This document shows, piece by piece, positions 47,742 through 56,865 of a stretch of DNA of 64,000 bases. Both the position numbers and the translations under genes were made by a program. This DNA comes from Streptomyces sp. NRRL B-24484 (GTDB lineage: Bacteria > Actinomycetota > Actinomycetes > Streptomycetales > Streptomycetaceae): assembly GCF_000717715.1 (NCBI RefSeq), contig NZ_JOAI01000022.1, positions 54,878-118,877 on the forward strand, given 5' to 3'. Position 1 is the first letter of the stretch. Each line of letters opens with the position of its first letter. Below the pieces are notes generated by a model. It searched no databases and was not told the DNA's origin. It saw only the letters and a list, made by a program, of their open reading frames with translations.

Positions 47742-48746
47742 TCAGGCGACGGGTGCGAGCCGCGGGGAGTCCTCGCCCAGGCCTGCGACGGTGTCCGCGA
47801 GCGCGGCGAGGTACCGCTCGGCGTCCAGGGCCGCCTGGCACCCGCTGCCGGCCGCGGTGATGGCCTGGCGGTAGGTGTGGTCGACGACGTCGCCGGCGCC
47901 GAACACGCCCGCGATGTTGGTGCGGGTGGAGGGGGATGCCACCTTCAGGTAGCCCTCGTCGTCCAGGTCGAGCTGGCCGGTGAACAGTTCGGTGCGCGGG
48001 TCGTGGCCGATCGCGATGAACAGGCCGGACGCCGCGAGCTCGCGCTCCTCACCGGTGACCGTGTCGCGCAGGGTGACGCCGGAGACCAGCTGGTCGCCGT
48101 GGATCGCGGCGACCTCGCTGTTCCACGCGAAGGTGATCTTCTCGTCGGCGAACGCCCGGTTCTGCATCGCCTTCGACGCCCGGAGGCTGTCGCGGCGGTG
48201 CACGATCGTCACCGAGTTCGCGAAGCGGGTGAGGAACGTGGCCTCCTCCAGCGCGGTGTCGCCGCCGCCGACCACGACGACGTCCTTCCCGCGGAAGAAG
48301 AACCCGTCGCAGGTCGCACACCAGGACACGCCGCGGCCCGACAGCTCGTCCTCGCGGGGGATGCCGAGCTTGCGGTAGCCGGAGCCAGTGGCGACGATCA
48401 CCGTCTTGGCGCGGTGGACGGTGCCCTCGGAGTCGGTCAGCAGCTTGATGTCCCCGGTGAGGTCGACCTCGATGATGTCGTCGTCGATCATCTCGGCGCC
48501 GAACTTCTCGGCCTGGGCCCGCATGTCGGTCATGAGGTCGGGGCCGTCGATGCCGTTCGGGAAGCCGGGGAAGTTCTCGACCTCGGTGGTGGTGGTGAGC
48601 GAGCCGCCGACGAAGATCGAGCTGCCGAACAGCAGTGGCTTGAGCTGGGCACGGGCGGTGTAGAGGGCGGCGGTGTACCCGGCGGGGCCGGAGCCGATGA
48701 TGACGACCTCGCGCACCTCGGCGGCGGTGTCCTGGTTCGCGGTCAT
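47742..48746 (-). CDS. trxB: Thioredoxin reductase (ArsT-type, arsenic operon)
   Basis: A 334-aa low-molecular-weight thioredoxin reductase. The FAD motif is VVIIGSGPAGYTAALY (about residues 14-29), the redox-active disulfide CATCD is near 147, and the NADP motif is VVVVGGGDTALEEATF. The C-terminal GAGDVVDHTYRQAITAAGSG completes FAD binding. It starts 8 bp after the stop of arsC on the same strand, so it probably keeps the reductant of ArsC recycled, as ArsT does in streptomycete ars clusters. Not linked to a thioredoxin gene here. Confidence 0.93.
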   Translation of the reverse strand: MTANQDTAAEVREVVIIGSGPAGYTAALYTARAQLKPLLFGSSIFVGGSLTTTTEVENFPGFPNGIDGPDLMTDMRAQAEKFGAEMIDDDIIEVDLTGDIKLLTDSEGTVHRAKTVIVATGSGYRKLGIPREDELSGRGVSWCATCDGFFFRGKDVVVVGGGDTALEEATFLTRFANSVTIVHRRDSLRASKAMQNRAFADEKITFAWNSEVAAIHGDQLVSGVTLRDTVTGEERELAASGLFIAIGHDPRTELFTGQLDLDDEGYLKVASPSTRTNIAGVFGAGDVVDHTYRQAITAAGSGCQAALDAERYLAALADTVAGLGEDSPRLAPVA

Positions 48747-48753
48747 GAGGACG

Positions 48754-49182
48754 TCAGCTCTCCTGTCCGGCAGCGGCCTTGGCGTCGATCTCGGCGATGA
48801 GGTCCTCGATGAGGCCCTTGATCTCGTCGCGGATCGGGCGGACGGCCGCGACGCCCTGGCCGGCCGGGTCTTCGAGCTTCCAGTCCAGGTACTTCTTGCC
48901 GGGGAAGTACGGGCAGGCGTCGCCGCAGCCCATGGTGATCACGTAGTCCGATGCCCGGACGGCCTCGGTGGTGAGGATCTTCGGCTTCTGGTCGGAGATG
49001 TCGATGCCGAGCTCCGCCATCGCGGCGACGGCGGAGGGGTTGACCTGGTCGCCGGGCATGGAGCCGGCCGAGCGGACCTCGACGCGGTCGCCGGCGAGGT
49101 GGGTGAGGAAGCCCGCGGCCATCTGGGAGCGGCCGGCGTTGTGGATGCAGACGAACAGCACGGAGGCGAGCGGCGCGGTCAT
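48754..49182 (-). CDS. arsC: Arsenate reductase, LMW-phosphatase type
   Basis: A 142-aa enzyme that reduces arsenate to arsenite. The P-loop is VLFVCIHNAGRSQMAAGF (about residues 8-25) with C-x5-R. Two further Cys in MGCGDACPYFPGKK (about 88-101) are the relay cysteines of thioredoxin- or mycothiol-coupled ArsC, and DPAGQ near the end holds the catalytic Asp. The ATG at 49182 follows AAGGACA. It is divergent from arsR (49302) and coupled to trxB downstream. Confidence 0.93.
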   Translation of the reverse strand: MTAPLASVLFVCIHNAGRSQMAAGFLTHLAGDRVEVRSAGSMPGDQVNPSAVAAMAELGIDISDQKPKILTTEAVRASDYVITMGCGDACPYFPGKKYLDWKLEDPAGQGVAAVRPIRDEIKGLIEDLIAEIDAKAAAGQES

Positions 49183-49607: not shown

Positions 49608-49661
49608 CCCTCCCACCACAGCCCCACCGGCGGCCTGCCCCGCCCTGCATGAGGAGTGTCC

Positions 49662-50435
49662 TTGAGCGCCATGGACGAGGCGAGATCCGAGACTGCCCCA
49701 GTGAACCACGTGGACCCCGTCGAGGAGCCGCTGGCGGTCGAGCCGCCGACGGTGCCGCTGCCGAACCGGGTGGCGGCCGAGCTGGTCGGCACCGCCGCCC
49801 TGGTCGCGGTCGTGGTCGGCTCGGGCATCCAGGCCACCGAGCTCACCCAGGACGTCGGCCTGCAGCTGCTGGCCAACTCCCTGGCCACGGTCTTCGGCCT
49901 CGGCATCCTGATCCTGCTGCTCGGCCCGGTCTCCGGCGCGCACTTCAACCCGGTGGTGACCCTCGCCGAGTGGTGGTCCGGCCGCAAGGACCCCAAGGGC
50001 CTCGGACCCCGGGAGGTCGCCGCGTACATCCCGGCGCAGATCGCAGGCGCGATCGCCGGGGCGATCCTGGCGGACGCCATGTTCGGCGAGGCGCTGGTGA
50101 AGTGGTCCACCCACGACCGCTCCGCCGGGCACCTGCTGCTCGGCGAGGTCGTCGCCACCGCCGGCCTGGTGCTGCTGATCTTCGGACTCGGCAAGAGCGA
50201 CCTGCTCAGGTTCGCGCCGGTCGCGGTCGCCTCCTACATCGGCGCCGCGTACTGGTTCACCTCCTCCACCTCGTTCGCGAACCCGGCGGTGACGATCGGC
50301 CGCGCGTTCACGGACACGTTCGCCGGCATCGCCCCGAGCTCGGTTCCCGGGTTTGTCGGCATGCAGCTGATCGGCGGCGTCGCGGGCCTGGCCCTGGTGG
50401 CGCTGATCTTCACCCACCGCACCGGCCGCAAGTAG
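49662..50435 (+). CDS. MIP-family channel (aquaglyceroporin-like) in ars operon
   Basis: A 257-aa six-helix channel. Both half-helix motifs are visible: SGAHFNPVVTLAEWW (N-P-V, about residue 92) and SFANPAVTIGRAF (N-P-A, about 206) with the selectivity-filter Arg after the second. Directly follows arsR. In Sinorhizobium AqpS next to ArsC lets arsenite leave the cell down its gradient; the same role is plausible, replacing the ArsB or Acr3 pump that is absent from this window. The start is TTG 49662 (5 nt after GAGGAG) or ATG 49671. Confidence 0.85.
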   Translation: MSAMDEARSETAPVNHVDPVEEPLAVEPPTVPLPNRVAAELVGTAALVAVVVGSGIQATELTQDVGLQLLANSLATVFGLGILILLLGPVSGAHFNPVVTLAEWWSGRKDPKGLGPREVAAYIPAQIAGAIAGAILADAMFGEALVKWSTHDRSAGHLLLGEVVATAGLVLLIFGLGKSDLLRFAPVAVASYIGAAYWFTSSTSFANPAVTIGRAFTDTFAGIAPSSVPGFVGMQLIGGVAGLALVALIFTHRTGRK

Positions 50436-50505
50436 CCGCCACCGCCCGCCGCACACCCGGACCGGGCAACGGTGCGGCGGCCTCTCTTTCTCCGGGGAGC
50501 CGTTG

Positions 50506-51558
50506 ATGAGCCCGCAGCCCACGGCCGTTGACGTCCTGGTCGTGGGTGGCGGACAGGCCGGACTCGCAGCCGGCTACTACCTGCGCCGCGCGAAGCTCGA
50601 CTTCGCGATCCTCGACGCCTCCACCGCGCCGGGCGGCTCCTGGCAGCACTACTGGGACAGCCTGCGCCTGTTCTCGCCGGCCGCCTACTCCTCGCTGCCC
50701 GGCCGGCCGATGCCCGCCCAGGCCGGGCAGACCTACCCGGATGCCGACCACGTCGCCCGGTACCTCGCCGAGTACGAGAAGCGCTACGACCTGCCCGTCC
50801 ACCGCCCCGTGACGGTCCGGGCGATCGAGGACACCGCCGACGGCCGACTGCTGGCCCGCACCGACGCCGGCACCTGGCGGGCCGGAGCACTGGTCATGGC
50901 CACCGGCACCTGGTCACGCCCGTTCATCCCCGCCCTGCCCGGCCGCGAGCACTTCGAGGGCCGCCAGGTCCACACCCACGGCTACCGCACCGCCGCCGAC
51001 TTCACCGGCCAGCGGGTCGTCGTGGTCGGCGGCGGCAACTCCGGCGCCCAGATCGCCGCCGACCTCACCGGTCACGCCGCCGCCGTCCGCTGGACCACCC
51101 TGCGCCCGCCGCGTTTCCTCCCGGACGAGATCGACGGCCGGGCCCTGTTCGAGATCGCCACCCGCCGCGTCAACGGCGACGGCCCCCGGATCAGCGACCT
51201 CGGCGACATCGTGGCCACCGACCCCGTCCGTACCGCCCGCGACGCCGGCCTGCTCACCGCCCACCCGATGTTCGAACGGATGGAGCCGGACACCGTGGTC
51301 TGGGCGGGCGGCGAGCGGTGGCCGTGCGACGCGGTCATCTGGTGCACCGGCTTCCGCCCGGCCCTCGGGCCGCTTGCCGCACTCGGCCTGCGCGGCGGCG
51401 CCGGCCGGATCCCCACCGACGGCACCCGGGCCCTGGCCGACGAGCGGATCCGTCTGCTCGGCTACGGCGACTGGACCGGTCCGGCGTCCGCCACCCTCAT
51501 CGGCGTCGGCCGCACCGCCCGCCAGGCCGTCGCGGAGATCCAGCAACGCCTCGCCTGA
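50506..51558 (+). CDS. Flavin-containing monooxygenase, ArsO-like
   Basis: A 350-aa flavoprotein. The FAD motif is VLVVGGGQAGLAAGYYL (about residues 9-25) with GGSWQHYWDSLRLFSP following, and the NADP motif is VVVVGGGNSGAQIAADL. This is the ArsO type found in actinomycete ars clusters such as that of linear plasmid pHZ227; its reaction on arsenic compounds is not settled. GGGGAGCC precedes the start. It follows the channel gene by 70 bp on the same strand, so the order arsR-channel-arsO forms one transcription unit. Confidence 0.85.
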   Translation: MSPQPTAVDVLVVGGGQAGLAAGYYLRRAKLDFAILDASTAPGGSWQHYWDSLRLFSPAAYSSLPGRPMPAQAGQTYPDADHVARYLAEYEKRYDLPVHRPVTVRAIEDTADGRLLARTDAGTWRAGALVMATGTWSRPFIPALPGREHFEGRQVHTHGYRTAADFTGQRVVVVGGGNSGAQIAADLTGHAAAVRWTTLRPPRFLPDEIDGRALFEIATRRVNGDGPRISDLGDIVATDPVRTARDAGLLTAHPMFERMEPDTVVWAGGERWPCDAVIWCTGFRPALGPLAALGLRGGAGRIPTDGTRALADERIRLLGYGDWTGPASATLIGVGRTARQAVAEIQQRLA

Positions 51559-51566
51559 CGTACCGC

Positions 51567-52067
51567 TCAGTCGACGGCCGGGCTGCGGCGCTCCATCAGC
51601 GCGACGTCGCGCCAGGTGCCGCGGTGGCGGCCGATACGCTCCCGGGTGCCGATCACCCGGAACCCCGCCCGCGTGTGCAGGGCGAGGCTGGCGGTGTTCT
51701 CCGGGAACACCCCGGACTGGATCGTCCAGATCCCGGCCGCCTCCGTCGAGCCGATCAGCGCCTCCAGCAGCCGGCTGGCGACGCCGCGGCCGCGCGCACC
51801 GGGGTGGACGTAGACCGAGTGCTCGACCACCCCGGCGTACGCGCACCGGTCCGAGACCCGACTCGCCGCGACCCAGCCCAGCACCTCGCCCGCCGCGTCC
51901 AGCGCGACGAAGCGGTGGTCCGGAAGCCTGCCCGCGTCGAACGCCTCCCAGCCGGGAGCGGCCGTCTCGAAGGTGGCGTTCCCCTCGTCGATCCCCGCCT
52001 GATAGATCGCCAGCACCTGCCCCGCATGGGAGTCCGTCATCGGGACGATCGCGACGTCAGCGGCCAT
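51567..52067 (-). CDS. GNAT acetyltransferase, ArsN/phosphinothricin type
   Basis: A 166-aa acetyltransferase. Family marks are IYQAGIDEGNATFETAAPGW near the N-terminus and the acetyl-CoA loop SVYVHPGARGRGVASRLLEA (about residues 86-105), then GIWTIQSGVFPENTASLALH. These match the phosphinothricin/arsinothricin acetyltransferase group (Pat, ArsN1), which inactivates arsinothricin, an organoarsenical antibiotic. Its start overlaps the end of the ArsR 2 gene by 11 bp, so the two are cotranscribed, supporting an arsenic-linked role. Confidence 0.82.
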   Translation of the reverse strand: MAADVAIVPMTDSHAGQVLAIYQAGIDEGNATFETAAPGWEAFDAGRLPDHRFVALDAAGEVLGWVAASRVSDRCAYAGVVEHSVYVHPGARGRGVASRLLEALIGSTEAAGIWTIQSGVFPENTASLALHTRAGFRVIGTRERIGRHRGTWRDVALMERRSPAVD

Positions 52068-52398
52068 GGCCGGTGTCCTCGCTCTCGCCCAGGATCGCCC
52101 TGACCGCGGCCGGGAAGACCGCCATACAGGTCCGGTTGACCTCGTACCGGGTAGAGGTGCCGTGCTTCTCGGGCAGGACGAAGCGGACCTCGGCAAGGAC
52201 CCTCAGGTGGTGGGAGACCGTCGACTGCCCGATCGGCGACCGCTCGACGATCTCGCCCACGCTCATCGGCCGGCCCTCGGTGGCGAGCAGGTGCAGCAGC
52301 TGGATCCGGGTCGGGTCGGCGAGCGCCTTGAACCACGCCGCGTACAGCGCGGCGGCCTCGGCGTCGATCACGGGGGTGGTGCATCCAGACTCATTCAT
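52057..52398 (-). CDS. ArsR-family repressor 2
   Basis: A 113-aa winged-helix repressor: AWFKALADPTRIQLLHLLAT, then MSVGEIVERSPIGQSTVSHH and LPEKHGTSTRYEVNRTC. Cys residues occur near the N-terminus (GCTTP) and near the C-terminus (RTC), not in the classical alpha-3 site, so the As(III) sensor would be of a different type from ArsR 3. ATG 52398 is preferred; a TTG at 52404 is possible. It is followed by the overlapping arsN-like gene. Its operator spans its own start codon. Confidence 0.87.
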   Translation of the reverse strand: MNESGCTTPVIDAEAAALYAAWFKALADPTRIQLLHLLATEGRPMSVGEIVERSPIGQSTVSHHLRVLAEVRFVLPEKHGTSTRYEVNRTCMAVFPAAVRAILGESEDTGHGR

Positions 52399-52422
52399 CG
52401 ACAATCGACGATAGTCGATGAA
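52394..52422. promoter_or_regulatory. ArsR-type operator over the arsR 2 start
   Basis: A 9-bp perfect inverted repeat TTCATCGAC (52394-52402) / GTCGATGAA (52414-52422) with an 11-nt centre, covering the start codon of ArsR 2. It shares the TCGAC half-site with the operators at 52833 and 52937. Confidence 0.75.
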
Positions 52423-52476: not shown

Positions 52477-52842
52477 TCAGCCGCCGGCCGCGGCAAGCAT
52501 GCCGGCCATGGCGGCGAGCACGCCCGGGGCGACGCGGTAGTAGACCCAGGTGCCGCGGCGCTCGGATGTGAGCAGGCCGGCCTCGCGGAGCTTCTTGAGG
52601 TGGTGGGAGACGGTGGGCTGGGAGACGCCGACGTCCTGGATGTCGCACACGCACGCCTCGCCGCCCTCGTGCGAGGCGACCCGGGAGAACAGCCGCAGCC
52701 GCACCGGGTCGGACAGGGCCTTGAACATCGCCGCCATCTTGACCGAGTCCTCCTCCGACAGCGGGGCGGAGGTCAGCGGCGGGCAGCACGGCACGGCCTC
52801 CGGCTCCAGCACCGGCAGCTCGATCACCTGGAGATTCGACAT
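52477..52842 (-). CDS. ArsR-family repressor 3 with ELCVCDL-type metal box
   Basis: A 121-aa ArsR/SmtB repressor. The recognition helix region is VGVSQPTVSHHLKKLREAGL. It carries EACVCDIQDV, the classic ArsR metal-binding box with two Cys in alpha-3, and an extra CC pair near the N-terminus (AVPCCPP). It is divergent from the Cys-rich peptide gene (53045), with operators between, so it probably controls the Cys-rich peptide-flavoprotein-MFS operon as well as itself. Confidence 0.92.
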   Translation of the reverse strand: MSNLQVIELPVLEPEAVPCCPPLTSAPLSEEDSVKMAAMFKALSDPVRLRLFSRVASHEGGEACVCDIQDVGVSQPTVSHHLKKLREAGLLTSERRGTWVYYRVAPGVLAAMAGMLAAAGG

Positions 52843-52868
52843 GTGTCTATGTTGGCATCCGTCGAATC
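52833..52868. promoter_or_regulatory. ArsR-type operator over the arsR 3 start
   Basis: An 8-bp perfect inverted repeat GATTCGAC (52833-52840) / GTCGAATC (52861-52868) enclosing ATGTGTCTATGTTG. It spans the start codon of ArsR 3. The inner TCTATGTTG is repeated in the second operator at 52937. Confidence 0.7.
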
Positions 52869-52936
52869 ACTTCGGAAGTCCCACCTCCGCCCGACGGAGG
52901 CGGCCGCGCATCCACCACCCTCCAGGCGCTCCAGAT

Positions 52937-53013
52937 TTCGACGAATGTCTATGTTGACGCTCATCGAAGCAGGTGCCATGCTAGCCACACAGCAGGCCAT
53001 CGACAAACGTCGA
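52937..53013. promoter_or_regulatory. Second ArsR-type operator and extra half-sites before the Cys-rich gene
   Basis: TTCGA (52937-52941) and TCGAA (52964-52968) enclose ATGTCTATGTTG, the same core as in the operator at 52833. A further short palindrome TCGAC-N4-GTCGA is at 53000-53013, 32 bp before the Cys-rich ORF. Together they suggest ArsR 3 represses both directions. Confidence 0.6.
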
Positions 53014-53044
53014 AACAAGGCCCCTTCGCCTCCGGGAGGCAGCC

Positions 53045-53248
53045 ATGACCGAGCCCACCCCCGCCGCAACCGCCCAGCCCGCCACCGGCTGCTGCTGCGC
53101 CAAGAGCGACGCCCCCACCCCGGCGGTCGAGGTGAAGACCGCGTCGGCCCCGTGCTGCGGCACCGCGACGGACGCCGCCAAGGCCGGCGCCTGTTGCGCC
53201 CCGGCCGCCAAGAGCGAGGCCGTCGCCGCCGGCGCCGGCTGCTGCTGA
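53045..53248 (+). CDS. 67-aa cysteine-cluster protein, candidate arsenite/metal-binding peptide
   Basis: A 67-aa protein with nine Cys in four clusters: C16-C18 (CCC), C37-C38, C50-C51 and C66-C67 at the very end. It has no His, no aromatic residue and no Arg; the rest is Ala/Thr/Pro/Lys. These are metallothionein-like properties, but the spacing matches no metallothionein family I know. GGGAGG precedes ATG 53045. It is the first gene of an operon with a Cys-tailed flavoprotein and an MFS transporter under ArsR-type operators. Binding or delivering As(III) is inference. Confidence 0.8.
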   Translation: MTEPTPAATAQPATGCCCAKSDAPTPAVEVKTASAPCCGTATDAAKAGACCAPAAKSEAVAAGAGCC

Positions 53249-53299
53249 CCCGCCCCCGCCCGAACCGCCCGACCGATCCATCGAGCCGGAGATCCCGAG

Positions 53300-54688
53300 A
53301 TGAGCGAGAACACCCCCACCGCCGCCCTGCCCGTCGCCGTCGTCGGCGCCGGCCCGATCGGCCTCGCCGCCGCCGCCCACCTGATCGAGCGCGGCATTGA
53401 GCCCTTGGTTCTGGAGGCCGGGCCCGCCGCGGGCACGGCGGTGCGCGAGTGGGCCCACGTGCGGCTGTTCTCCCCGTGGGCGGAGGTGGTCGACCCGGCC
53501 GCCGAGAAGCTCCTGACTCCCACCGGCTGGACCCGGCCCGACGGCACCGTCTACCCGTCCGGCGGCGACTGGGCGACGCAGTACCTGCAGCCGCTCGCCG
53601 ACGTCCTCGGCGGTCGCGTCCACTACAACAGCCAGGTGACCGGAGTGGCCCGCGCCGGACGGGACCGCATCGTCGACTCCGGCCGCGACGAGCAGCCGTT
53701 CACCGTCCACGTCGAGCACGCCGACGGGTCCGAGGAGCGGATCCTGGTGCGCGCCGTCGTCGACGCGTCCGGGACCTGGTCCACCCCGAACCCGCTCGGC
53801 GCCAACGGCCTCCCGGCGCTCGGCGAGCGCGCCGCGAACGGCCGGATCTCCTACCGAATCCCGGACCTCATGGACCCGGCCGTCCGGCAGCGGTTCGCGG
53901 GCAAGCGCACCGCCGTGGTCGGCACCGGCGCCTCCGCCTTCACCGCACTGGCCTACCTCGCCGACCTCGCCAGGACCGAGCCCGGCACCCACGCCGTGTG
54001 GGTCCTGCGCCGCGGCATCACCGGCTCGACGTACGGCGGCGGCGAGGCCGACCAGCTGCCCGCCCGCGGCGCGCTCGGCCTGCGCGCCAAGAAGGCCGTC
54101 GAGGACGGCCACGCCAGCGCGCTCACCGGCTTCCGCACCGCAGCCGTCGAGACCGAGGGCGACCAGGTCGTCCTGGTCGCCGAGGACGGCCGCCGCAGCG
54201 AGAGCGTCGACCAGGTCGTCGTCCTGACCGGCCTGCGCCCGGACCTGTCCTTCCTGTCCGAAATCCGGCTCGGCCTCGACGAGCGCCTCCAGGCCCCGAC
54301 CGCCCTCGCCCCGCTCATCGACCCGAACCAGCACTCCTGCGGCACCGTGTACCCGCACGGCGCGGCCGAGCTCGCCCACCCCGAGCAGGGCGTGTTCCTG
54401 GTCGGCATGAAGTCCTACGGCCGGGCGCCGACGTTCCTCGCCATGACCGGCTACGAGCAGGTCCGCTCCGTCGCGGCCCACCTCGCCGGCGACCTGGAGG
54501 CCGCCGCGCGCGTCGAACTCACCCTCCCCGAGACCGGGGTCTGCGGCGGCGCCGGCCTGTTCGACGAGCCCGCCGCGGCCCAGAGCGACGGCGGTGGCTG
54601 CTGCTCGGTGCCGGCCGCACCGCAGCTGATCACCCTCGGCGCCCCCGGCAGCGAATCCTCGTCGTGCTCCACCAGTGGCGGCTGCTGA
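53300..54688 (+). CDS. FAD/NAD(P)-binding oxidoreductase with Cys-rich C-terminal tail
   Basis: A 462-aa flavoprotein. The FAD motif is VAVVGAGPIGLAAAAHL (about residues 12-28) and the NADP motif is KRTAVVGTGASAFTALAYL (about 201-219). The core resembles flavin-containing monooxygenases or thioredoxin-reductase-like enzymes. After residue 415 comes a tail not needed for the fold: GVCGGAG, GGGCCSVP and a final SSSCSTSGGC. These Cys pairs echo those of the 67-aa protein just upstream. The next gene, an MFS transporter, starts 8 bp downstream. It probably acts on an arsenic species or accepts it from the peptide (inference). Confidence 0.85.
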   Translation: MSENTPTAALPVAVVGAGPIGLAAAAHLIERGIEPLVLEAGPAAGTAVREWAHVRLFSPWAEVVDPAAEKLLTPTGWTRPDGTVYPSGGDWATQYLQPLADVLGGRVHYNSQVTGVARAGRDRIVDSGRDEQPFTVHVEHADGSEERILVRAVVDASGTWSTPNPLGANGLPALGERAANGRISYRIPDLMDPAVRQRFAGKRTAVVGTGASAFTALAYLADLARTEPGTHAVWVLRRGITGSTYGGGEADQLPARGALGLRAKKAVEDGHASALTGFRTAAVETEGDQVVLVAEDGRRSESVDQVVVLTGLRPDLSFLSEIRLGLDERLQAPTALAPLIDPNQHSCGTVYPHGAAELAHPEQGVFLVGMKSYGRAPTFLAMTGYEQVRSVAAHLAGDLEAAARVELTLPETGVCGGAGLFDEPAAAQSDGGGCCSVPAAPQLITLGAPGSESSSCSTSGGC

Positions 54689-54696
54689 CCGGGCCC

Positions 54697-55938
54697 GTGA
54701 CGACCGCTCAGGCCAGCGGGGCCGCGACCGGAACGGGGGACCGGTCGCGGCCCCGCGCCGCACTTCCCGCCCTGTGCGTCACCCAGATCACCGGCTGGGG
54801 CATCCTCTACTACGCCTTCCCCGTCCTCACCCCGCGCCTCATCGCCGACACCGGCTGGAGCACCGCGCAGACGACCGCCGCATTCACCGCCGCCCTCCTC
54901 CTGTCGGCCGTCACGGGCATCCCGGTCGGCCGGATCGTCGACCGGCACGGCCCCCGCACCGTGATGACCACAGGCTCCGGCCTCGGCGTTGTGGCGCTCG
55001 CCGCCGTAGCGTCCGCCCCGAGCCTGCCCCTGTTCTTCGCCGCCTGGCTGCTCGCCGGCACCGCCATGGCCGCCACCTTCTACCAGCCCGCCTTCACCGC
55101 CCTCACCCGCTGGCACCAGCCCGACCACGTCCGGGCGCTGACCACCGTCACCCTCGCCGGCGGCCTCGCCTCCACCGTCTTCGCCCCCGCCACCGCCGCC
55201 CTCGCCGACCACCTCAGCTGGCGGACCACCTACCTCGTCCTCGCCGCAGTCCTCGCAGGAGTCACCATCCCGCTGCACGCCCTGGCGCTGCGCCACCCCT
55301 GGCCCCAGGAACCGCACACCACGGCACACTCCGGACCCGCGGCCGTCCGGAGCCCGGCGAGGACCAGGCCGTTCCTCCTGCTCGCCGCCGCGTTCACCCT
55401 GTCCGGGTTCGCGATGTACGGCGTCGTCTTCAACACCGTCCCGCTCCTCACCGAACGCGGCGCCGGCCCCACCACCGCGGCCTGGGCCCTCGGCCTCGGC
55501 GGTCTCGGCCAGACCCTCGGCCGCACCCTCTACTCCACCCTCGCCCGGCACACCGGAGCCACCAGCCGCACCACGACGCTGATCGCCGCCGGAGGCACCA
55601 CCACCCTCCTGCTAGCCCTGGTGCCCGGCCCCGTACCCCTGCTCGCAGGCATGGCGATCCTGGCCGGCACCATCCGCGGCAACCTCACCCTGCTCCACGC
55701 CACTGCCGTCACCGACCGCTGGGGCACCAACGCCTACGGCCACCTCACCGCACAACTCGCCGCCCCCGCGACCATCGCCGGAGCGCTCGCCCCCTGGGCC
55801 TCCAGCGCACTGGCCCCCACCCTCGGCGGCTATCCCGCCCTGTTCACCGTCCTCGCCGCCCTGTCAGCCGCGGCCGCCCTGCTCACGCTGGGCACGGCCC
55901 CGCCACGACAGCAGCCTGATGACGTCCGTACCAGTTGA
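54697..55938 (+). CDS. MFS transporter, probable arsenic-compound exporter
   Basis: A 413-aa MFS permease with 12 predicted helices: ALCVTQITGWGILYYAFPVL in helix 1, GIPVGRIVDRHGPRTVMTTG as the signature loop between helices 2 and 3, and a second half beginning near residue 225. GTG 54697 is 8 bp after the flavoprotein stop, so they share a transcript. Position in the ars island suggests export of an organoarsenical or a product of the flavoprotein; MFS arsenic exporters (ArsJ, ArsK, ArsP-unrelated) are known, but it was not matched to one of them. Confidence 0.85.
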   Translation: MTTAQASGAATGTGDRSRPRAALPALCVTQITGWGILYYAFPVLTPRLIADTGWSTAQTTAAFTAALLLSAVTGIPVGRIVDRHGPRTVMTTGSGLGVVALAAVASAPSLPLFFAAWLLAGTAMAATFYQPAFTALTRWHQPDHVRALTTVTLAGGLASTVFAPATAALADHLSWRTTYLVLAAVLAGVTIPLHALALRHPWPQEPHTTAHSGPAAVRSPARTRPFLLLAAAFTLSGFAMYGVVFNTVPLLTERGAGPTTAAWALGLGGLGQTLGRTLYSTLARHTGATSRTTTLIAAGGTTTLLLALVPGPVPLLAGMAILAGTIRGNLTLLHATAVTDRWGTNAYGHLTAQLAAPATIAGALAPWASSALAPTLGGYPALFTVLAALSAAAALLTLGTAPPRQQPDDVRTS

Positions 55939-56033: not shown

Positions 56034-56441
56034 TCAGCCACCCGTCGGTTCGCCGACACACCCACGCAGGAATGCGGGAGCCCATCGGCTTCGCAGCAGC
56101 ATGAGGCCGACCGCGTCGGCGAGGGCGGCCGCGACCTCGGGCCGGCGCTCCCCCGGGTACTCCGCGAGCAGCAGGCGGTCGAGGGCGACGCCGAGCTCGG
56201 CGGCGGCGACCAGGCCGAGGCCCTGCAGGCCGACGGCTGCGCACCAGGTGCCTGCGGTGGTGGCGGCGGCAGCGAGGGCGAGCATCAGCGCGGCGTCCCC
56301 GCCGACGGAGACGACGGTGCCGGGGCGCAGGCCGCGCTCGGGCAGGAGGTCGTGCAGCGCAGGCAGGACGGGCACCAGCGGTCCTGGCCGGGACGGCCGG
56401 AGCTGGGCCGTCAGGGCGCTGAGCGTCGTCTCCACACGCAT
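56034..56441 (-). pseudogene. ImuA'-like RecA-related remnant
   Basis: It starts MRVETTLSALTAQLRPSRPG, then VLPALHDLLPERGLRPGTVV, SVGGDAALMLALAAA and LLLAEYPGERRPEVAAALAD, resembling the N-terminal half of the short RecA-like protein that precedes ImuB-type DNA polymerase genes in actinomycetes. After VGLMLLRSR the family match stops and the frame ends at 56034 with unrelated residues. The usual polymerase gene is absent. It appears truncated. Confidence 0.5.
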
Positions 56442-56865
56442 GGGATCGAACAAAGTTCCGCAGAAGGCGCTGTGCCGCACCCTCACAGAACTCGGCTACG
56501 GCACCGGGGGCAGCCACGGCGTCTCGCTCCTGGACGTCGGCGGCTTCGATGCCGGGCCCTACATGTCGATGCCGGACCACCAGCCCTGCCAGCGGATCCA
56601 GTAGCCCCTGCCCACGCCGGACCCACCCTCCGACAGGCGATCCGCCGAAGCCGTCGGTGGTCAATGGGCACCGGGATCGGGGGATCGCGGGTGATCCTCG
56701 ATCGCAGCGGACTCGGGCTCGCTGTCCCCGTCCGGGGCCGGGCGGCCGCGGCGGCCGCCTACGGACTGCTCGGCGCTGGCGCAACTGCCCTGCGGCACCC
56801 GGCCTTCGGAGCACGGATTCCCGTGCCGCCCAGGGTACGAGGGGTCGGCGCCTGCCGTGCGGCGT
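56442..56865. other. Eroded DNA with no assignable gene
   Basis: Two plus-strand segments look faintly coding (LTELGYGTGGSHGVSLLDVG, 56480-56600; LDRSGLGLAVPVRGRAA, 56697-56760), but neither has a start or a recognisable family. They may be relics of genes neighbouring the ImuA'-like fragment. Confidence 0.3.

Follow-up and report, generated by a model that had tools for sequence, protein, structure and literature searches.

The window analyzed here is a stretch of 64,000 nucleotides of Streptomyces sp. NRRL B-24484 (NZ_JOAI01000022.1, 54,878–118,877), and all window coordinates count from its first letter. Its proteins find their closest named matches mostly in Kitasatospora (protein searches). 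An arsenic gene cluster spans 47.7–55.9 kb of the window and includes an operon of three genes that encode a small peptide with pairs of cysteines (Cys), a flavoprotein, and a predicted exporter of the major facilitator superfamily (MFS), with the gene of an ArsR-family regulator divergent from them (table 1). The peptide is the new part of this locus: by sequence comparison, it represents a conserved, unnamed family with four Cys pairs.

As a first-pass annotation of this DNA had stated, the operon opens with a peptide of 67 amino acids (aa) whose nine Cys are arranged as CCC followed by three CC pairs and which has no aromatic residues; F, W, Y, and H are all absent. A GGGAGG stretch lies five bases 5′ of its ATG. 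The same annotation correctly placed the MFS gene 8 bp after the flavoprotein gene, with a GTG start codon at 54697 and the preceding stop at 54688.

The divergent regulator is also present and has a CVC box as expected, but the box reads EACVCDI rather than being of the predicted ELCVCDL type, and the protein carries an additional CC pair at its N-terminus. Shared operators had been proposed between this gene and the operon, and two 23-bp direct repeats do lie in the intergenic region common to both. The two copies fit the pattern TGTCTATGTTG-N-C-N5-TCGAA, which was derived from those same two copies; it has no further match in the window at two mismatches, and no match arose in 100 shuffles. 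The core of the repeat, GTNTATGTYGA, recurs in other genomes of the same family: at 55 of 75 flavoprotein loci it occurs within 900 bp 5′ of the flavoprotein gene, with 65 hits there versus four in all remaining sequence of those loci. We infer that the repeats are operators bound by ArsR.

Table 1. Features of the arsenic gene cluster in the window, followed by M28 peptidase genes scanned at other loci (locus:start-end)
Feature	Position	Strand	Basis or score
Thioredoxin reductase, ArsT-like by position	47742..48746	-	TIGR01292, 399 bits, over cut-off
Low-molecular-weight arsenate reductase, ArsC-like	48754..49182	-	Under family cut-offs
MIP-family channel	49656..50435	+	81.7 bits, under TIGR00861 cut-off of 171.25
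ArsO-family flavin monooxygenase (NF040505)	50503..51558	+	506.7 bits, over cut-off of 425
GNAT acetyltransferase, nearest ArsN1 family A (NF040503)	51567..52070	-	128.9 bits, under cut-off of 170
Second ArsR/SmtB-family regulator, without CVC box	52057..52404	-	
Divergent ArsR-family regulator with CC and CVCD cysteines	52477..52842	-	
Predicted ArsR operator, copy 1	52844..52866	+	
Predicted ArsR operator, copy 2	52946..52968	+	
Cys-pair peptide, first gene of operon; homologous to C-terminal tail of Nocardia ArsI	53045..53248	+	Open reading frame (ORF) plus profile and sequence comparison
FAD/NAD(P)-dependent flavoprotein, 462 aa, ArsV-like by context; conserved HSCGTV, ETGVC, and C-terminal CC tail	53300..54688	+	
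C-terminal Cys tail of flavoprotein, from ETGVC on; predicted disordered, kept in family with or without peptide	54530..54688	+	
MFS exporter (predicted), distant ArsK relative	54697..55938	+	167.4 bits to ArsK model NF033733, under cut-off of 400
M28 peptidase	L126:5171-6379		
M28 peptidase	L134:5189-6466		
M28 peptidase	L137:5186-6439		
M28 peptidase	L141:5096-6304		
M28 peptidase	L144:5037-6278		
M28 peptidase	L152:5099-6343		

A conserved family of Cys-pair peptides

The window peptide has no match among Pfam and NCBIfam models even at E ≤ 1, and thus none to a model of ArsD, a metallothionein, or a precursor peptide. An initial search recovered 15 further homologues (E up to 0.1), with three of the Cys pairs invariant and the first nearly so, and a profile search seeded with 16 sequences returned 465 proteins at E ≤ 1 (the list covers the 120 best). 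In an alignment of 32 members, which range from Streptomyces to Micromonospora, the same three pairs are invariant (PCCGT, CC, and a GCC at the end) and the first is again nearly invariant; members from Actinoplanes, Dactylosporangium, and Micromonospora additionally carry an N-terminal GGF-GDPAAAL block. Among nine peptides compared by codon (those of G070 and G074 excluded), the proportion of nonsynonymous differences (pN) is lower than that of synonymous differences (pS) in 31 of 36 pairs (mean pS of 0.38, mean pN of 0.27). Because its homologues are conserved together with their Cys pairs, because the profile has so many matches, and because pN is lower than pS, the peptide is, on the evidence of these comparisons, more than a chance ORF. 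Titles and abstract openings found by open-library literature searches, with most subscription papers outside their reach, do not describe it.

In 150 genomes of the same family, the peptide is present in 12, and in 11 of these it is directly 5′ of the flavoprotein gene. The twelfth genome, G099, has a weaker match (E of 2.2e-6) located beside ArsR and ArsN. The peptide of this genome (L043, 7171-7389) has six CC pairs, and by eye the next ORF resembles an ATP-grasp protein. In a class-wide sample, at least two of 394 genomes have a match to profile A1, namely the genome of the window and one with an ArsI tail; the count is a lower bound, with 15 candidates per genome scored in the first pass. 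No relatives were found in plasmids at E ≤ 1 with the low-complexity filter on.

A named-genome collection was scanned with one short, context-blind pattern. The pattern matched 172 stretches, 29 of which encode a relative, again a lower bound. These comprise 25 free peptides, three ArsI tails (all C-terminal and from Nocardia), and a single copy that is shortened and forms part of a flavoprotein. An ArsR homologue is upstream on the opposite strand in 24 of 25 free-peptide loci, at a distance of less than 800 bp in 20, ∼1.6 kb in three, and 3.5 kb in one (L140, with flavoprotein and MFS genes between); the single locus without ArsR, L127, is at the end of a contig. The flavoprotein is encoded in the fetched stretch of 22 of the 25 loci, the exceptions being L126 and the short contigs L127 and L145. 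The expectation that the peptide would be conserved in actinomycetes and found in ars clusters is therefore borne out, as the family occurs in many genera beside ArsR.

What follows the free peptide is variable. The next gene encodes the flavoprotein in nine of 25 loci (including L132, where a peptidase remnant intervenes), an M28 peptidase in 12 (homologues over 250 bits were counted), a second ArsR in three, and a peptidase remnant in one. Together with the lack of a flavoprotein match in G099, these arrangements speak against a dedicated peptide-to-flavoprotein unit as originally proposed. The six M28 peptidases that were scanned match Pfam PF04389 with 74–97 bits, and 11 of the 12 loci with an M28 peptidase next are from what we take to be Micromonosporaceae. 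Why a peptidase should be located in an arsenic gene cluster raises the question of whether arsenic-containing peptides are its substrates.

The module is also found fused to enzymes. In three Nocardia loci (L129, L136, and L149), it forms the C-terminal tail of ArsI, a member of the C–As lyase family. The ArsI proteins of L129 and L136 pass the ArsI/CadI model NF041414 (219.5 and 219.7 bits vs. a cut-off of 116) and score 49.1 and 47.9 bits, respectively, on the peptide profile, in comparison to at most 7.3 bits in 1680 plain shuffles and at most 14.9 bits in 40 Cys-preserving shuffles of the two. The window peptide is 56% identical to the L136 tail over 45 aa, with the likeness including CCGT, CC, and AVA-G-GCC. 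Conversely, when Nocardia ArsI is the query, a search of the genome of the window recovers the peptide (68% over ArsI residues 140–176, E of 4.1e-6). A further ArsI, in L053, has a partial match of 15.7 bits. These comparisons strongly support homology between the peptide and the Nocardia ArsI tail. The alignment is confined to the tail region, and Pfam and NCBIfam find no VOC/glyoxalase enzyme domain of ArsI/CadI (NF041414) in the peptide. In addition, the genome of the window has an ArsI-like gene with a Cys-rich end (G000:C4:9057-9513; L156 and L158) whose halves are in different frames, either a broken gene or an assembly error.

The second type of fusion is in Micromonospora endophytica (L150), in which the last half of the module is at the start of a flavoprotein ORF (27.4 bits vs. 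at most 4.7 bits in 200 plain shuffles). Occurrence of one module as a free peptide, on ArsI, and on a flavoprotein is the strongest clue that the sequences suggest as to its function. The fusions to ArsI and, in shortened form, to the flavoprotein make it plausible that the module functions with trivalent arsenicals and passes them on to an enzyme. In the part of PMC6514093 that concerns it, ArsI is described as having a role in demethylation of methylarsenite, with a Cys pair predicted to bind methylarsenite.

The flavoprotein, its tail, and the exporter

The flavoprotein matches Pyr_redox_3, has at least 8000 homologues at E of 1e-20, and occurs in 75 of the 150 same-family genomes and in 125 of 72,556 plasmid records, including some outside Actinomycetota. 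HSCGTV and TGVC are invariant in all 13 aligned sequences, which are from actinomycetes, Ensifer, Bosea, and Paenibacillus, and an exact HSCGTV is present in 71 of 75 same-family flavoproteins. The 75 do not include G099, which has no flavoprotein, and retain two damaged copies, G095 (frame lost) and G074 (in two pieces, of which only the better-scoring C-terminal piece was read). ArsO is of the same superfamily, but the flavoprotein scores only 46.5 bits on its model NF040505, failing the cut-off, and the cluster has a true ArsO of its own.

The C-terminal tail with its GGGCCSVP and SSSCSTSGGC motifs is present at the end of the 462-aa protein, as annotated. It had been called dispensable, a word that its conservation does not uphold: a CC pair is present in 74 of 75 same-family tails and a Cys is among the last six residues in 70 of 75. 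Only at G095, where the reading frame is broken and the peptide absent, is a CC tail lacking. The peptide is encoded at only 11 of the 75 loci, rejecting it as a constant partner of the flavoprotein, and 63 loci have the tail but no peptide. Because the CC tail is so common and the peptide so rare at the same loci, the tail is independent of the peptide. It is probably a separate and older thiol arm of the enzyme. Residues 411–462 have a predicted local distance difference test score (pLDDT) under 50, suggesting disorder. The flavoprotein model itself is weak (mean pLDDT of 66.7, predicted template modeling [TM] score of 0.60, and 25 sequences; 50 listed fold matches have TM scores of 0.29–0.43 by query length) and was used solely for assigning the superfamily and the disordered tail. 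Models and solved structures place the protein, with weak scores, near the bacillithiol disulfide reductase YpdA and thioredoxin-reductase-like proteins.

The tail had also been read as matching the peptide in its Cys motifs. That the two are copies of each other is not borne out, as BLASTP finds no match and the best of the 75 tails scores 9.7 bits on the peptide profile (2.9 bits for the tail of the window enzyme). The comparison with plain shuffles points in the opposite direction: five of 75 tails exceed the best shuffle (7.3 bits) and 45 of 75 have some score versus 34 of 1500 shuffles. With Cys-preserving shuffles, tails and shuffles peak at the same value (9.7 bits), although some score is still obtained more often for tails (41 of 75) than for shuffles (124 of 1500). 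Tail and peptide thus have at most a weak common flavor, and these scores do not demonstrate homology. Tails of Ensifer and Bosea (ACC..DAAAK/DAVAK..GCGC) resemble the peptide by eye, yet obtain no score on the peptide profile; a search with the Ensifer tail in the 72,556 plasmids matched only two Ensifer flavoproteins. In P0123 (Kitasatospora sp. NPDC004614, 511 aa), the tail of the flavoprotein is enlarged to several CC repeats and seems to have grown by repetition.

A flavoprotein–MFS pair beside ArsR is not specific to this window, as it is also found in Rhodococcus, Ensifer, Bosea, and two Streptomyces plasmids. In the Ensifer adhaerens plasmid, the order is GNAT, ArsR, flavoprotein, and an MFS annotated as ArsK. 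Its flavoprotein is 46.5% identical to that of the window, and the Ensifer MFS in the same gene order passes the ArsK model with 515.3 bits, the model that the window MFS fails. Across the family, a homologue of the window MFS is on the same strand downstream of the flavoprotein in only 27 of 75 loci, and a Paenibacillus plasmid has the flavoprotein without an adjoining MFS gene. The idea of an MFS next to the flavoprotein in all relatives is therefore not upheld; either the pump differs among loci or its sequence has diverged too far for tblastn to recover.

The pair is best compared to ArsV and ArsW. Passages of PMC10080717, citing Chen et al. 2021, state that ArsV oxidizes methylarsenite and ArsW extrudes methylarsenate, and passages of PMC9144182 place ArsW among efflux transporters and ArsV among proteins for organoarsenical resistance; neither set of passages mentions a Cys peptide. 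The layout in the window is that of ArsV/ArsW, in which the ArsR gene adjoins that of a flavin monooxygenase and an MFS gene comes next, and predicted oxidation followed by export is likewise shared. No model named ArsV or ArsW is among the NCBIfam matches of the family scan, and the window MFS is under the ArsK cut-off. Judged by the order of the genes and the roles predicted for them, the two proteins likely function as ArsV and ArsW do, which makes them a variant of a known pair and candidate members of the ArsV/ArsW module. The claim that neither peptide nor enzyme matches a named Ars protein thus stands for the peptide, but the flavoprotein and MFS share the gene order of ArsV/ArsW and the MFS is a relative of the ArsK family.

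Profiles find no ACR3/SBF pump in the whole genome. Other contigs have two matches to the ArsB model (88.0 and 77.9 bits vs. a Pfam cut-off of 22.2) and one to ArsP_1 (250.6 bits, over the Pfam cut-off), and the idea that the window MFS is the only arsenic pump of the genome does not hold. Elsewhere in the cluster, the ArsC-like reductase is coupled with the MIP-type channel, a pairing which we take to recall the AqpS type of Sinorhizobium. Beside the cluster, an ORF at 56034-56486 (-) matches NF058630, the DnaE2-dependent mutagenesis accessory factor ImuA′ (84.8 bits vs. a cut-off of 65).

Possible roles of the peptide

We propose, with moderate confidence, that the peptide binds trivalent arsenicals and carries or buffers them for neighboring Ars enzymes, while the flavoprotein oxidizes them, the MFS exports the product, and ArsR switches on all three genes. 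When a trivalent arsenical enters or forms, ArsR would bind arsenic and release the two repeats in the shared promoter, turning on the genes for the peptide, flavoprotein, and MFS. The CC pairs of the peptide would take up the arsenical, such as methylarsenite, which is bound by two thiols, or arsenite, which is bound by three. The peptide would then carry or buffer it for adjoining Ars enzymes, and transfer is predicted to be from the peptide to the enzyme. Like ArsV, the flavoprotein would use NAD(P)H and O2 to oxidize the trivalent arsenical, and the product would then be exported by the MFS, as by ArsW/ArsK. The peptide is likely a thiol carrier or buffer for trivalent arsenicals that serves several Ars enzymes, a more general role than the one first assigned to it. 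The first-pass annotation is partly supported as a whole: the conservation of the peptide, its location in arsenic gene clusters, and its lack of a family match are upheld, and the novelty of the enzyme and pump, the matching of tail to peptide, and a dedicated peptide-to-flavoprotein unit are not.

Several observations weigh against this proposal. The flavoprotein does not need the peptide, as 64 of 75 loci lack it, and in G099 the peptide is retained in a genome with no match to the flavoprotein. The peptide is often followed instead by an M28 peptidase, for which search listings give no tie to arsenic in the literature. The MFS is inconstant as a neighbor of the flavoprotein, including its absence next to the Paenibacillus gene. 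Of the profile, the fusion in M. endophytica retains just the final half, in which there are a single CC pair and one unpaired Cys. CC pairs could also bind Cd, Zn, Cu, or Hg, and the family model of ArsI also covers CadI. Finally, the Cys pair cited for ArsI in the relevant part of PMC6514093 is Cys98-99, which is in the core and not in the tail.

Comparisons to named systems help to place the peptide. It shares sequence homology with the ArsI tail and differs from ArsI/CadI in being free-standing, in having an extra N-terminal Cys block, and in lacking a glyoxalase-fold domain. ArsD is a metallochaperone of As(III) for ArsA, with Cys pairs that pass As(III) to the partner; the peptide has no ArsD match in Pfam or NCBIfam, and no ArsA match is among the cluster genes scanned. 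Bacterial metallothioneins, such as SmtA and MymT, are small and Cys-rich, and known metallothioneins use CxC/CxxC spacing. The peptide has CC pairs only, has no match to their models, and is linked to genes for ArsR, ArsN, and the flavoprotein.

The closest competitor is that the peptide acts as a plain metallothionein-like sink, sequestering whichever soft metal or metalloid induces the operon without handing it to an enzyme. Nine Cys in 67 aa and the absence of aromatics fit such a sink, as do the differing genes that the peptide precedes and its retention without a flavoprotein match in G099. We regard a sink as unlikely, given that the module occurs in fusions with two distinct enzymes linked to arsenic (ArsI and the flavoprotein), that its Cys are in pairs rather than in metallothionein spacing, and that the position directly 5′ of the flavoprotein in 11 of the 12 same-family genomes bearing the peptide suggests a working link. 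Still less probable is that the Cys pairs form a redox relay, in which they would act as disulfide partners in electron exchange with the flavoprotein or ArsI and arsenic would not be a ligand. The proximity of the flavoprotein to YpdA and thioredoxin-reductase-like proteins, from weak scores and a low-confidence model, and a thioredoxin reductase gene in the same cluster are compatible with a relay, but vicinal CC pairs make poor redox disulfides, the operon is beside an ArsR gene and a repeat whose core is present at 55 of 75 loci, and a relay would be unexpected in ArsI with the same tail, which part of PMC6514093 describes as a non-heme iron dioxygenase. It is very improbable that the peptide is the precursor to a modified natural product or that its ORF arose by chance in GC-rich DNA: the peptide is short and Ala/Gly-rich and the UniRef label "ACGX-repeat peptide" is on two homologues (P0007 and P0160), but the window peptide matches no family model, no maturation enzyme was noticed among the neighbors, only some of which were scanned against families, and the invariant Cys pairs and low pN noted above argue against both.

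Within the proposal that the peptide carries or buffers arsenicals, a more specific version can be put forward tentatively, as one that we would not yet favor over doubt. The peptides may be an unnamed arsenic-carrier family of Actinomycetota, in which a mobile module of four Cys pairs is an exchangeable arm for delivery of As(III) or methylarsenite, MAs(III), to oxidases and C–As lyases. The arm would be free in most genera, on the tail of ArsI in Nocardia, and, in shortened form, on the head of an ArsV-like oxidase in one Micromonospora, having a role like that of ArsD with an unrelated sequence.

Methylarsenite is a soil antibiotic, and the route by which it reaches the enzymes that destroy it is an open question. 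To our knowledge, ArsD, for arsenite, is the only such carrier. If the proposed role is true, a small carrier that also occurs fused to ArsI and a flavin oxidase would bear on how methylarsenite is delivered to detoxifying enzymes. It would also give a likely role to a gene that is labeled hypothetical in public records and is found in arsenic clusters of several actinomycete genera.

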